From: Methylacidiphilum sp. Yel
Lineage (GTDB): Bacteria; Verrucomicrobiota; Verrucomicrobiia; Methylacidiphilales; Methylacidiphilaceae
Length of the DNA stretch: 45,837 nucleotides
Direction of reading: 5' to 3'
NCBI RefSeq assembly: GCF_004421185.1
Contig: NZ_LXQB01000027.1
Location: 1-45,837, forward strand
Position 1 is the stretch's first letter. Every line of letters begins with the position of its first letter. Shown here piece after piece: positions 4,047-7,822 of this stretch. A program made the translations under genes and the position numbers. A model generated the notes under the pieces. That model made no database searches, was not told the origin of the DNA, and saw only the letters and a program-made list of their open reading frames with translations.

Positions 4047-4892
4047 ATGCGAGCCCTATGGAAAGGGACCATCAGCTTTGGGCTTGTGACGATTCCGGTC
4101 AAGCTGTATCCTGCCATAAAAACGGAACCATTGCATTTTAAATTTCTTCGACGCAGCGATCTTTCACCTATAACGAACAAACGGGTGGCTGTGACAGATC
4201 AAAAAGAAGTGCCTTGGGATCAAGTAGTTCGCGGGTACGAATATGAAAAAGGCAAATTTGTAATTCTGAAAGATGAAGACTTTGATCGAGTCGATGTAGA
4301 AGCCATTCATACTGTTAAAGTTTTAGATTTTGTTGCGCTTTCTGAAATTGATCCCATTTACTTCGAAAAACCCTATTATTTAGTTCCTGATAAAGGCGGA
4401 GAAAAAGCCTACCAATTATTCCATTATGGTTTAACCAAGACCGGAAAAACGGCCATCGCCAAAATTATACTACACAACAAGGAGCACATGGCCGCATTGA
4501 AAGCAAAAAATTCCTTACTGACTCTGGAACTTATGTATTTTCAAAGGGAAATTGTTGATCCCAAAGAACTAGGCACTCCACCAAAAGTCGAATTGGATGA
4601 GCGTGAAAAGAAAATGGCGATAGAATTAATCGAAAAAATGTCTGTACCTTGGGATCCAAGCCGGTATCAAGACGAATATTCGAAAGCTATTGAAAAACTC
4701 ATTAAAGAAAAAATCAAAAAGGGACATACAGAAATATCCAAGGAAAAAAAGCCTCAAACTAGAGGAAAAGAACAAAAAGATCTTGTTTCTCTGCTTGAAG
4801 AAAGTTTGCGAATGGGAAATGGTCGATCAAGGATTTCTACAGGCTATGGGTTAAAGCAAGAGACTAAAAAAGGAAAAAAGAAAAAAGAGTGA
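4047..4892 (+). CDS. ku: Ku protein, NHEJ end binder
   Basis: A 281-residue homologue of bacterial Ku, the ring-shaped homodimer that binds double-strand DNA ends and recruits the ligase in non-homologous end joining. The start MRALWKGTISFGLVTIPVKL is the canonical Ku N-terminus. The DNA-bridge core follows (KEVPWDQVVRGYEYEKGKFV, then DEDF, about 50-80), with YFEKPYYLVPDKGGEKAY near 105-122. After the core comes a very Lys-rich tail (about residues 225-281), usual in bacterial Ku and thought to help DNA binding and ligase recruitment. Its stop overlaps the start of the ligase by 4 bases, so the two are translationally coupled. No Shine-Dalgarno is visible before the ATG. Confidence 0.95.
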   Translation: MRALWKGTISFGLVTIPVKLYPAIKTEPLHFKFLRRSDLSPITNKRVAVTDQKEVPWDQVVRGYEYEKGKFVILKDEDFDRVDVEAIHTVKVLDFVALSEIDPIYFEKPYYLVPDKGGEKAYQLFHYGLTKTGKTAIAKIILHNKEHMAALKAKNSLLTLELMYFQREIVDPKELGTPPKVELDEREKKMAIELIEKMSVPWDPSRYQDEYSKAIEKLIKEKIKKGHTEISKEKKPQTRGKEQKDLVSLLEESLRMGNGRSRISTGYGLKQETKKGKKKKE

Positions 4893-5851
4893 ACTTAGAT
4901 CTCTTCAACTTACCTAAATTGGAACCCATGTTTTTAGAGCCGATGCTGGCCAAAAGCAGTCATTGCCAGATTCCTTATCCGGGCTGGATTTACGAACCTA
5001 AAATTGATGGTATGAGGATTATCGCTGTCAAATTTGACAATCAAAAGACTGTTCTTTTTTCTCGAAGGAAGTTATCAGAAAATGAAAGATTTCCCGCCAT
5101 TCTCAAAACTTTAAATTCAACTGAAGAATCCACGTGGGTTCTAGACGGAGAAATCGCTGCTCTCGACCAACAGGGTAAACCTTCATTTCATCTTCTTCAA
5201 AAAGCAAGAGACAAAGTTTTGACCGTTTTTTATCTCTTCGATCTGCTTTCTTTAAGGAAGCGCGACCTGCGCAGATTGCCTCTTAGCACCAGAAAAGATC
5301 TTCTCTACCACTTCTTTTATCATCTTCCCTCCCCAGTCCGCTTGATCCCCTATTTTTCTGAAGAGCCAGAGAAGGTCGCCGCAAAAATTAATGAGTTAGG
5401 TTTTGAAGGAGTCGTTGCAAAACGTGCTGACTCTGTCTATACATCGGGGAAAAGATCTTCAGCATGGTTGAAATTCAAGTTTTTAAAACGACAGGAGTTT
5501 GTCATTATAGGCTGGACAGAGCCAAAAGGCTCGCTAAGGCCTTTTGGCTCTCTTCTTTTAGGTTATTATCAAAATAATGTTCTCTGCTATGCCGGCAGAG
5601 TAGGCAGCGGGTTCTCAGAACAAACAGCTCTGGAGCTTTATAGGCTACTAAAAAAGCTTGAAATTTCTTCTACCCCACTCAGTCAGTCGCCACCAATTCA
5701 ATTTCCTAGATCTCTTTCTATCCACTGGACAAAACCAATGATTCTTTGCGAAGTTGCATTCAGAGAATGGACAGCAGTTGGTAAAATCCGCCAGCCCGTC
5801 TTTGTAGGAATCCGTACAGACAAAAGTCCTTTAGAAGTCAGTCGCGAATAA
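4889..5851 (+). CDS. ligD: ATP-dependent DNA ligase, LigD ligase-domain type
   Basis: A 320-residue protein starting at a GTG inside the Ku stop region. It is an ATP-dependent ligase: the nucleotidyl Lys lies in the EPKIDGMR motif (K38), with later motifs VLDGEIAAL (III), FEGVVAKR (IV) and AWLKFKF (V). An OB-fold region follows (RQEFVIIGWTEPKGSLRPFG and GYYQNNVLCYAGRVGSGF). It corresponds only to the ligase domain of LigD. The polymerase/primase and phosphoesterase domains of the multidomain enzyme are absent and not encoded elsewhere in the window. Coupling to Ku indicates a role in end joining. Confidence 0.93.
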   Translation: MNLDLFNLPKLEPMFLEPMLAKSSHCQIPYPGWIYEPKIDGMRIIAVKFDNQKTVLFSRRKLSENERFPAILKTLNSTEESTWVLDGEIAALDQQGKPSFHLLQKARDKVLTVFYLFDLLSLRKRDLRRLPLSTRKDLLYHFFYHLPSPVRLIPYFSEEPEKVAAKINELGFEGVVAKRADSVYTSGKRSSAWLKFKFLKRQEFVIIGWTEPKGSLRPFGSLLLGYYQNNVLCYAGRVGSGFSEQTALELYRLLKKLEISSTPLSQSPPIQFPRSLSIHWTKPMILCEVAFREWTAVGKIRQPVFVGIRTDKSPLEVSRE

Positions 5852-5877: not shown

Positions 5878-6180
5878 CTATTTCTTATGAATCGCCATAG
5901 AGGAAACAAACTCATCCCAGGGAACGGCTGACATCGTTTCAGTGATTTCTTTTCCATATCCCCGGAGTATCATCGCTGCTTTTTCCACCTCAGCTACATC
6001 TTTTGCCTCAACAATGTCCACAATGTCATATTCTCCTAGGGTCGCATAACTTTCTTTCCATTTTATCCCCGGGCATTCCTCTTTGATCTTACTGGAAACA
6101 ACCTTTGATAAATTTTTGATTTCTGATGGCTCCTTCATACTTTCTGGAGTTAAACGGCTGAGGATAATAAAAGTGGGCAT
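5878..6180 (-). CDS. GYD domain protein
   Basis: A 100-residue protein resembling the GYD family (PF08734), small alpha/beta proteins of unknown function named after a Gly-Tyr-Asp motif. Here the motif appears as LGEYDIVDIVEA (about 48-59), preceded by a short helix and followed by AAMILRGYGKEITETMSAVPWDEF. The MPTFIILSRLTPESM start matches the first strand of the fold. It is convergent with the ligase and downstream of the minus-strand OPG/hydrogenase run by 77 bases, so it may be independently transcribed. An AGGAGTGA-like sequence lies just upstream of the ATG. Confidence 0.8.
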   Translation of the reverse strand: MPTFIILSRLTPESMKEPSEIKNLSKVVSSKIKEECPGIKWKESYATLGEYDIVDIVEAKDVAEVEKAAMILRGYGKEITETMSAVPWDEFVSSMAIHKK

Positions 6181-6257: not shown

Positions 6258-6956
6258 CTATGAGCACAGAGCTGAACGCACCAAGCCCGCACGACATAAC
6301 CTAGCTGCTTTTCTAGCAAGTCTTAATGGTTCTGGAGTCCTATATTTTATGGTATAGCTAAGAACAATCTCTATCGCTGTCTCCCAATCAAGTCGGTAGC
6401 CTGGATGCACAACAAGCGGCGCTTTGTTCTCTTGCGTTCTAAGCCAAAAAGCAACAGTTTCGTTCCCGATTCGAAGTTCGGATCTATCTCCTCTGTTCTT
6501 TCCTGGAAGAACGCCTGTGGCTATTAAAGGTTTTCTTGTGATCCCCACCGTAGGAATATCCAGTTTATACCCCAAATGCAGAGCCAGACCCGCTCTGTGA
6601 GGATGATCCCTTGAAGTTGCATTGACAAAAAGAAGCTCAGGGCGAAGATTAAGTCCAACGACAGCTTTTTCTAATAACGGTCCATCTCTTAAAGCAAGCA
6701 ACCCTGGAATATAATCGAAAGAAGCTCTTTCAGAAATAGTGAAAGTCTTTAGTTGTCCATCGGGAAAAAGGGCAATAGCAGCCCCCCATCCTTGATCGAA
6801 CTTTTTACCGGGTCCACTTCTTTGTCGTCCATAACAGATGAAGACGGCAGCACAGACAAATGGTTTGGAAGGTTTTTCCCAATTTGAAACAGAAAGCATA
6901 GCTATTCTTTTTTGTTCCGAAATCAACTCTTCTATGGTTGTAGGCCACCCCTCCAT
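6258..6956 (-). CDS. Endonuclease V-like protein lacking the catalytic residues
   Basis: A 232-residue homologue of endonuclease V, which normally cuts the second phosphodiester 3' of deoxyinosine. The fold markers are clear: the wedge motif DYIPGLLALRDGPL (81-94), LLFVNATSRDHPHRAGLALH (109-128), IPTVGITRKPLIATG (134-148) and the end PEPLRLARKAARL (208-220). Compared from memory with the Thermotoga and E. coli enzymes, each metal or catalytic residue is changed: the AGVD Asp is V38, the FREGP Glu is D91, the VDG/FDG Asp is N112 and the RLAH His is R215. It is therefore probably not a conventional nuclease, though the wedge is retained. It begins 2 bases after the hypA stop, so it sits at the end of the same minus-strand run. 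Confidence 0.8.
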   Translation of the reverse strand: MEGWPTTIEELISEQKRIAMLSVSNWEKPSKPFVCAAVFICYGRQRSGPGKKFDQGWGAAIALFPDGQLKTFTISERASFDYIPGLLALRDGPLLEKAVVGLNLRPELLFVNATSRDHPHRAGLALHLGYKLDIPTVGITRKPLIATGVLPGKNRGDRSELRIGNETVAFWLRTQENKAPLVVHPGYRLDWETAIEIVLSYTIKYRTPEPLRLARKAARLCRAGLVRSALCS

Positions 6957-6958
6957 CT

Positions 6959-7300
6959 TTATTCGACCTCTATACTATCTAGTGTTAATTCTTTGACCTC
7001 TTCGGATAAGATCATGACTCCCTCACAGTTAGGACAGCTCTCACCAATTTTTCCTACAAATCCTTCCTTTTGACAACTTAAGCAGTAGGCTTTGACAAGA
7101 ATTTCTTCAATATGAAGTTCAGCTCCTTCGGCAATTGTTCCTTTAGAAGCAATCGAAAAGGAAAACTTCATCGCTTCTGGTTCAACAAGGGCTAAGGGAG
7201 CTGTCTTTAAGACAATTTTTATGACCTTGTGAAATCCTAATTCCAGCGCCTTTTCTTCAAGCAAAGAAACCAATGATTCGCACAGGGAAAGTTCATGCAT
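6959..7300 (-). CDS. hypA: HypA, hydrogenase nickel incorporation protein
   Basis: A 113-residue HypA, the metallochaperone that with HypB delivers nickel to the large subunit of [NiFe]-hydrogenase. It begins MHELSL; the N-terminal Met-His-Glu binds nickel in HypA proteins. The zinc site is two CxxC pairs, C73/C76 (CLSC) and C89/C92 (CPNC). Length matches the family. The start is unambiguous because the N-terminal MHE is functional. It is 4 bases downstream of the maturation protease gene and 2 bases upstream of the EndoV-like gene. No hypB or other hyp genes are in the window. Confidence 0.95.
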
Positions 7301-7304
7301 AGAT

Positions 7305-7784
7305 TTAGCTAACCTCGGTTTTTTCTGAACTAAACTCTTTTTTGAACATTTCTACAAGTCTCTCAATTGCTTCTTTTACTGGTTCTGAAAGACCGATCCC
7401 ATAGCCCACCTCTTTAACCTCAACCAAGTAGATTTTAATATTTTTAGGGAACCTTTCCTTATAGAGCCATTTAGCCCATTTCAAGGCATCATCCCAGCCG
7501 AAAGAATGCAGATCGACATAGGGATCTGTTTCTAGCAATTTTTCAAGCTGCTCCCCTCCAACCATAAAAATTGTTCCAGGGATAGATCCACTCTTTAGTC
7601 CATCGACCACAATCAATGAATCGTATTCCTCCAGATCATCTAAAAGAGAAAACCCCGATGTTCCATAATCAATGAGTTTTACAGGCAGGGATGGATGCAA
7701 TGAAGCAAGCCTTTGGATCAACTCAGGGCCAAGCCCATCATCTTTTCTAAGCAATTGACCACAACCAATAATAGCAATAGCCAT
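7305..7784 (-). CDS. Hydrogenase maturation protease (M52 family)
   Basis: A protein of the HybD/HyaD/HupD family that removes the C-terminal peptide of the hydrogenase large subunit after nickel insertion. With the ATG at 7784 as start (an upstream GTG is possible), the sequence opens [19 protein letters not shown], the family's G-x-G-N-x-L-x-x-D-[DE]-G-x-G motif with Gln for Asn. D16, D61 (IVVDGL) and H93 (DLHSFG) fall at the positions of the nickel-sensing E16, D62 and H93 of HybD. About 159 residues is the normal length. It lies 38 bases after opgH and 4 bases before hypA. The matching structural hydrogenase genes are not in the window. Confidence 0.92.
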
Positions 7785-7822
7785 TAGGAAGTATTCTAAC
7801 ACCGTTGGTTTTGTTTTTCATT

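Follow-up and report, generated by a model that had tools for sequence, protein, structure and literature searches.

The DNA analyzed here (the window) is a 45,837-nucleotide contig of Methylacidiphilum sp. Yel. An endonuclease V (EndoV)-like gene lies at positions 6258..6956 on the minus strand, where an intact reading frame runs from an ATG to a stop codon and encodes 232 amino acids, and the coordinates, strand, length and clean frame given for it in the initial annotation were all reproduced. Its upstream neighbors, at 6959..7802 on the same strand, are hydrogenase maturation genes of the hypA and hycI types (PF01155 and PF01750). At 5878-6180 the window encodes a GYD-domain protein that is 100% identical in two related genomes (G003 and G004) and 93-94% identical in two others (G001 and G002), and is far more conserved than the EndoV-like protein, whose identity to its relatives is 93%, 75% and 62%. 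Positions 4047-5851 encode Ku and, after it, a LigD-type ligase domain of 320 aa that stands alone, with neither polymerase nor nuclease domains, and the two form a minimal pair for NHEJ; in the G003 flank that was examined, only the final part of the ligase was detected. An additional reading frame at 306-647 contains a CPECGSIHDREVNAARNI segment, which we take to be typical of the C-termini of IS200/IS605-type TnpB proteins, and this frame is probably a transposon remnant.

The identification of the 232-residue protein as an EndoV homologue, already made in the initial annotation, is supported by profile, sequence and fold comparisons, and the homology is far above chance level. The protein matched PF04493 (Endonuclease_5) with 124.4 bits against a gathering cut-off of 23.4 (E = 6e-36), and this was its only Pfam match at E values of 0.001 or less. 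When EndoVs of known structure were searched with phmmer, the best match was the Thermotoga enzyme (E = 3e-28). An AlphaFold2 model, built from an input alignment of 76 related sequences, had a mean pLDDT of 95 and a pTM of 0.92, and superposed on Thermotoga EndoV (6ozf) with a Z score of 29.5 and an rmsd of 2.0 over 217 residues, so that the fold resembles that of canonical EndoV (nfi, PF04493; 2w35, 2w36, 6ozf, E. coli 4xpu and S. avermitilis 3goc) over its full length. Unlike canonical EndoV, however, the window protein falls below the cut-offs of both NCBIfam EndoV equivalogs, scoring 121 bits for NF008629 (cut-off 230) and 113 bits for NF041102 (cut-off 300). It is the only EndoV encoded in the source genome.

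In the Thermotoga enzyme (TmEndoV), D43, E89 and D110 hold the metal, and K139, which contacts the phosphate, locks the cut phosphate together with H214 (PMC4650699). For residue comparison, we aligned 92 sequences related to the window protein (termed variants below) with 41 canonical EndoVs, the latter drawn from Verrucomicrobiota and Actinomycetota only and numbered as in Thermotoga (Tm). The canonical proteins carried D43, E89, D110, K139 and His or Asp at 214 with one-off exceptions only, such as a Glu in place of Asp110 in one mid-scoring protein, and all 41 had the three metal carboxylates, the Lys, and His or Asp at the last site. At the same five positions the window protein reads F39, D91, N112, R141 and R215. 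F39 (6840..6842, minus strand, as are all residue coordinates below) replaces D43; in the profile alignment it stands opposite Tm position 43 (Asp in 2w35, Ala in 2w36), where Asp is absent from the whole clade and Phe and Trp predominate. D91 (6684..6686) takes the place of E89, a conservative change at a site where most relatives keep Glu and others have Leu, Ile, Met, Val, Ala or Ser. N112 (6621..6623) replaces D110, a change identical to the D110N mutant crystallized with inosine DNA (title of 6ozf), and the clade has Asp or Asn here, rarely Ala or Pro. T140-R141 (6534..6539) replace the canonical Ala/Gly-Lys139, with Thr invariant at 140 and His, Asp, Arg or Asn, also Ala, at 141. Finally, R215 (6312..6314) replaces H214 and is Arg in 85/85 clade members. 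Only one of the three potential metal ligands, the carboxylate of D91, is therefore left in the window protein.

These assignments refine the claim, made initially, that all four catalytic positions are replaced. All four do differ in the window protein and in its closest Methylacidiphilum relatives, but the first site is F39 rather than V38, the Glu position carries a conservative Asp, and across the clade, of the four, replacement is universal for the first Asp and the C-terminal His/Asp alone; the change of K139 to R141 adds a fifth replaced catalytic residue to the four listed earlier. Among 85 scorable variants, two metal-site carboxylates were present in 32, one in 51 and none in two, and no variant had all three. 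Scoring below both equivalog cut-offs, and lacking the three-carboxylate site, K139 and the His/Asp at 214, the window protein lies outside canonical endonuclease V (nfi), a DNA- and RNA-repair enzyme that cuts the second phosphodiester 3' of (deoxy)inosine.

The regions that contact the lesion have changed much less. TmEndoV recognizes hypoxanthine through backbone atoms of a pocket, and its pocket and wedge positions are G83, L85, G111, G113, G121, L142 and Y80 (PMC4650699). The wedge tyrosine, which separates the strands and is Y82 in the window protein (6711..6713), is present in 86/86 clade members, the pocket positions G83, L85, G113, G121 and L142 are retained in 74-86 of 86 variants, and G111 is Ala in most. 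The window protein itself has Y82, G85, L87, G123 and L144, with A113 and S115 where canonical proteins have Gly, and judged from these aligned residues it retains the canonical wedge tyrosine and most of the lesion pocket despite the two substitutions. Like canonical EndoV, the variants also keep the R-x-P-E-P C-terminal segment and the histidine at Tm H116 (H118 in the window, 6603..6605; 86/86 in the clade). In place of the wedge residue Tm I81, on the other hand, clade members often have Glu or Arg, which suggests that the base-separating step may differ from that of TmEndoV.

Beside these retained residues, the variants have acquired a conserved set of their own. D117 (6606..6608) is a new invariant acidic residue, found in 86/86 variants where 39/41 canonical proteins have Ala, and H184 (6405..6407) is nearly invariant (84/86), replacing a Ser present in 41/41 canonical proteins. 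The conserved switches from canonical to variant are Ala to Leu at 11, Ala to Asp at 117, Ala to Thr at 140, Gly to Ala at 146, Ser to His at 184, Leu to Thr at 207 and His to Arg at 215. Clade features without a canonical counterpart also include Trp57, Trp or Tyr at 187, Arg219 and, following strand 1, a loop rich in Gly.

To determine the extent of the clade, GTDB species genomes were scanned with a family profile. The scan gave 80 loci, most with 38-51% identity, in Actinomycetota, Chloroflexota, Acidobacteriota, Armatimonadota, Fidelibacterota, Deinococcota, Myxococcota and Dormiibacterota, together with one Bacillota MAG and the Methylacidiphilaceae, so that the branch with the altered site is present in at least nine bacterial phyla. 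The catalytic replacements are common to practically all of these loci, and in a quick maximum-likelihood tree a single branch with an SH-aLRT of 100 separated 87 variant from 41 canonical rows; the possibility, raised in the initial annotation, that the replacements are shared by a clade is thus borne out. Most variants scored ∼94-147 bits against the Pfam profile, versus at least 165 bits for canonical proteins. When intermediates were sought among mid- and low-scoring sequences, the low scorers being an actinobacterial sample, the four mid-scoring proteins were canonical, five low-scoring ones were fully variant and none was mixed, and one further low-scoring sequence was partial and carried variant residues. 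In 23/24 variant-bearing genomes of other groups, many of them draft assemblies, a canonical EndoV was not found, and a Kribbella genome contained both forms. No domain fusions were obvious by length among clade members, no solved structure of the subfamily was found (3goc aligns as canonical), and a search of the open-licence literature did not find a description of the clade. The EndoV subfamily defined by this new set of conserved residues appears to be new. Its general kind, the RNase H-fold protein whose catalytic site has degenerated, is already known: Majorek et al. note RNase H-like families that have incomplete sites and that are frequently inactive (PMC3985635). A third type of EndoV-like protein, marked by a PGxFYxRELP segment, is encoded at three loci, each in a different genome; it keeps the Glu, the Asp110-type Asp and Lys139 and has Asp as its last residue. 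One actinomycete MAG carries a second, frame-split variant copy alongside an intact one.

Within the Methylacidiphilaceae, the EndoV-like gene is common to relatives in Methylacidimicrobium and in genomes taken to be Methylacidiphilum. Pairwise dN/dS values within Methylacidiphilum (Nei-Gojobori, unsaturated dS) were 0.13-0.22, showing that the gene is under purifying selection; this excludes a pseudogene in the window and, together with the clade-wide sharing of the replacements, agrees with the earlier view that the gene is maintained rather than decaying. Its history in Methylacidimicrobium is less uniform, in that the gene is split between two reading frames in one complete genome (G006) and gave no match in another genome (G008), suggesting that it is dispensable in some lineages. 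In G002, two near-identical EndoV-like copies lie 3.4 kb apart (1500839-1504956), each with a neighboring gene for a HypA-like protein (identity to HypA of the window, 66% and 37%), and this pair is a local duplication.

The initial annotation had regarded the position of the gene at the end of a hydrogenase/OPG gene run as unexpected, but this setting proved to be incidental. In G001, the EndoV-like gene is kept and neither HypA nor HycI was detected beside it, the Methylacidimicrobium copies have flanks that differ from the hypA/hycI setting of Methylacidiphilum, across ∼70 loci of the clade the orientation of neighbors was near random, and in other phyla the commonest neighbor family accounted for 5/128 neighbors. 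On these results a hydrogenase partnership was rejected, and the EndoV-like gene works by itself or together with partners encoded elsewhere. A role as a defense gene was also rejected, since there was no PADLOC match among the three members tested and no recurrent neighbor family, as was a phage or plasmid origin, since no clade member occurred in IMG/VR; among the matches listed, those from phages and most from plasmids were annotated as ordinary nfi/EndoV or were partial, with identities of at most 43%. A DUF72 gene was seen within ∼6 kb of the variant at seven loci, which come from at least two phyla; where strands were checked, the two genes mostly lay on opposite ones, and the association may be chance.

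We propose that the window protein is a reader of flipped-out or modified bases, one that binds them without cutting through the metal mechanism of EndoV; to this reading we assign a probability of roughly 50%. Nucleic-acid binding, base preference, the absence of cutting and the biological role are all properties that we infer for it. Having lost both the metal site of three carboxylates and the Lys/His phosphate lock, but kept its RNase H-like fold, wedge Tyr and the greater part of the pocket, the protein would bind nucleic acid where a base is deaminated or modified in some other way, without EndoV-type cutting. Once bound, it could serve as a lesion or modification reader, either shielding the site or recruiting other repair, and D117, T140, H184, W/Y187, R215 and the Gly-rich loop probably retuned its choice of base or nucleic acid. 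Consistent with this proposal, none of the variants has the three carboxylates found throughout the canonical proteins, the wedge and most pocket positions are retained, and the variants form one clade that has no intermediates and is under purifying selection. TmEndoV altered at each metal position was still crystallized with DNA, as 2w36 (Ala at 43, a lesion-recognition complex; PMC4650699), 6ozf (D110N) and 6ozg (E89Q), making recognition without an intact metal site physically plausible by analogy. Moreover, another repair route for hypoxanthine is present in the source genome, because it encodes a glycosylase of the AAG type (PF02245). This family excises hypoxanthine, and its member here could remove the base instead.

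Several observations run counter to a non-cutting reader. More invariant polar residues have been gained around the former site than a pure binder would need, the presence of a variant as the sole EndoV in most of the genomes searched could mean that it performs the task of EndoV, and the base-separating step, as noted above, may not be that of TmEndoV. DUF99/Endo_dU (PF01949, 2qh9) is also relevant by analogy. It has an incomplete DEDD set with no conserved first Asp and His, Arg or Lys at the last position, and yet it cleaves deoxyuridine DNA by a mechanism that is unexplained (PMC11585767). The window protein resembles it in having an RNase H-like fold, an incomplete DEDD set and, at the final catalytic site, a basic residue, but has no Pfam DUF99 match, gives a structural Z of only 13.7 over 146 residues and is the longer of the two proteins. 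A further comparison is provided by inactive PIWI lineages, which have lost the RNase H residues and kept nucleic-acid binding (PMC3702460); PIWI/Argonaute and pPIWI-RE proteins belong to the same broad fold clade as the variant, but the 232-residue protein has no guide-binding MID-like domain and shares about 10-17% identity with them.

A serious rival, in view of the cleavage by DUF99/Endo_dU despite its incomplete DEDD set, and one to which we give less weight than to the reader, is that the variant is a working enzyme in which D117, H118, T140, H184 and R215, together with His, Asp or Arg at 141, form a new catalytic or metal center that cuts, or acts in some other way on, another modified base or type of nucleic acid. 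That one conserved set gave way to another in concert (D117, T140, H184, T207 and R215) and that the variant is usually the only EndoV both fit such an enzyme, and from the alignment D117, H118 and H184 would be the natural candidates for the rebuilt center, but the flanking position 141 is variable (H/D/R/N/A) and the closeness of D117, H118 and H184 is deduced from topology only. An EndoV fold whose catalytic or recognition center (D117/H118/T140/H184/R215) has been wholly rebuilt, and whose target is not inosine but a different base or nucleic acid, is a somewhat more doubtful proposition. These considerations also bear on the description of the protein as catalytically dead in the initial annotation: the canonical metal site is indeed absent, but death itself does not follow, given the new D117, T140, H184 and R215 and the cleavage by Endo_dU. 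Similarly, of the compensating acidic residues that were said to argue against a dead enzyme, the invariant D117 may be one, as a candidate metal ligand.

It is unlikely that the variant is simply a weakened EndoV, in which the remaining carboxylate or carboxylates and D117 bind metal and nick inosine sites. Most members do keep E91, about half keep D112 and the lesion pocket is preserved, but Asp never occurs at the first site, two members lack metal-site carboxylates altogether, Lys139 and His214 are replaced throughout, and the window protein has D91 only. A decaying gene without function, suggested by the frame-broken copy in G006 and the missing match in G008, is very improbable in view of the low dN/dS values in Methylacidiphilum and of intact copies with invariant residues in many phyla.

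The reader that we favor, or a new active site in its place, would represent a new activity in DNA or RNA quality control, and if the center has been rebuilt, a new nucleic-acid processing activity would be hidden under the name endonuclease V. The subfamily is represented by a small single-domain protein, with natural members that have zero, one or two metal carboxylates. Its members pass the Pfam EndoV cut-off and would be labeled as deaminated-base endonucleases, and none has the required residues. Since the variant is the sole EndoV in 23/24 of the genomes described above, EndoV inosine repair has probably been wrongly assigned to many bacteria of several phyla.
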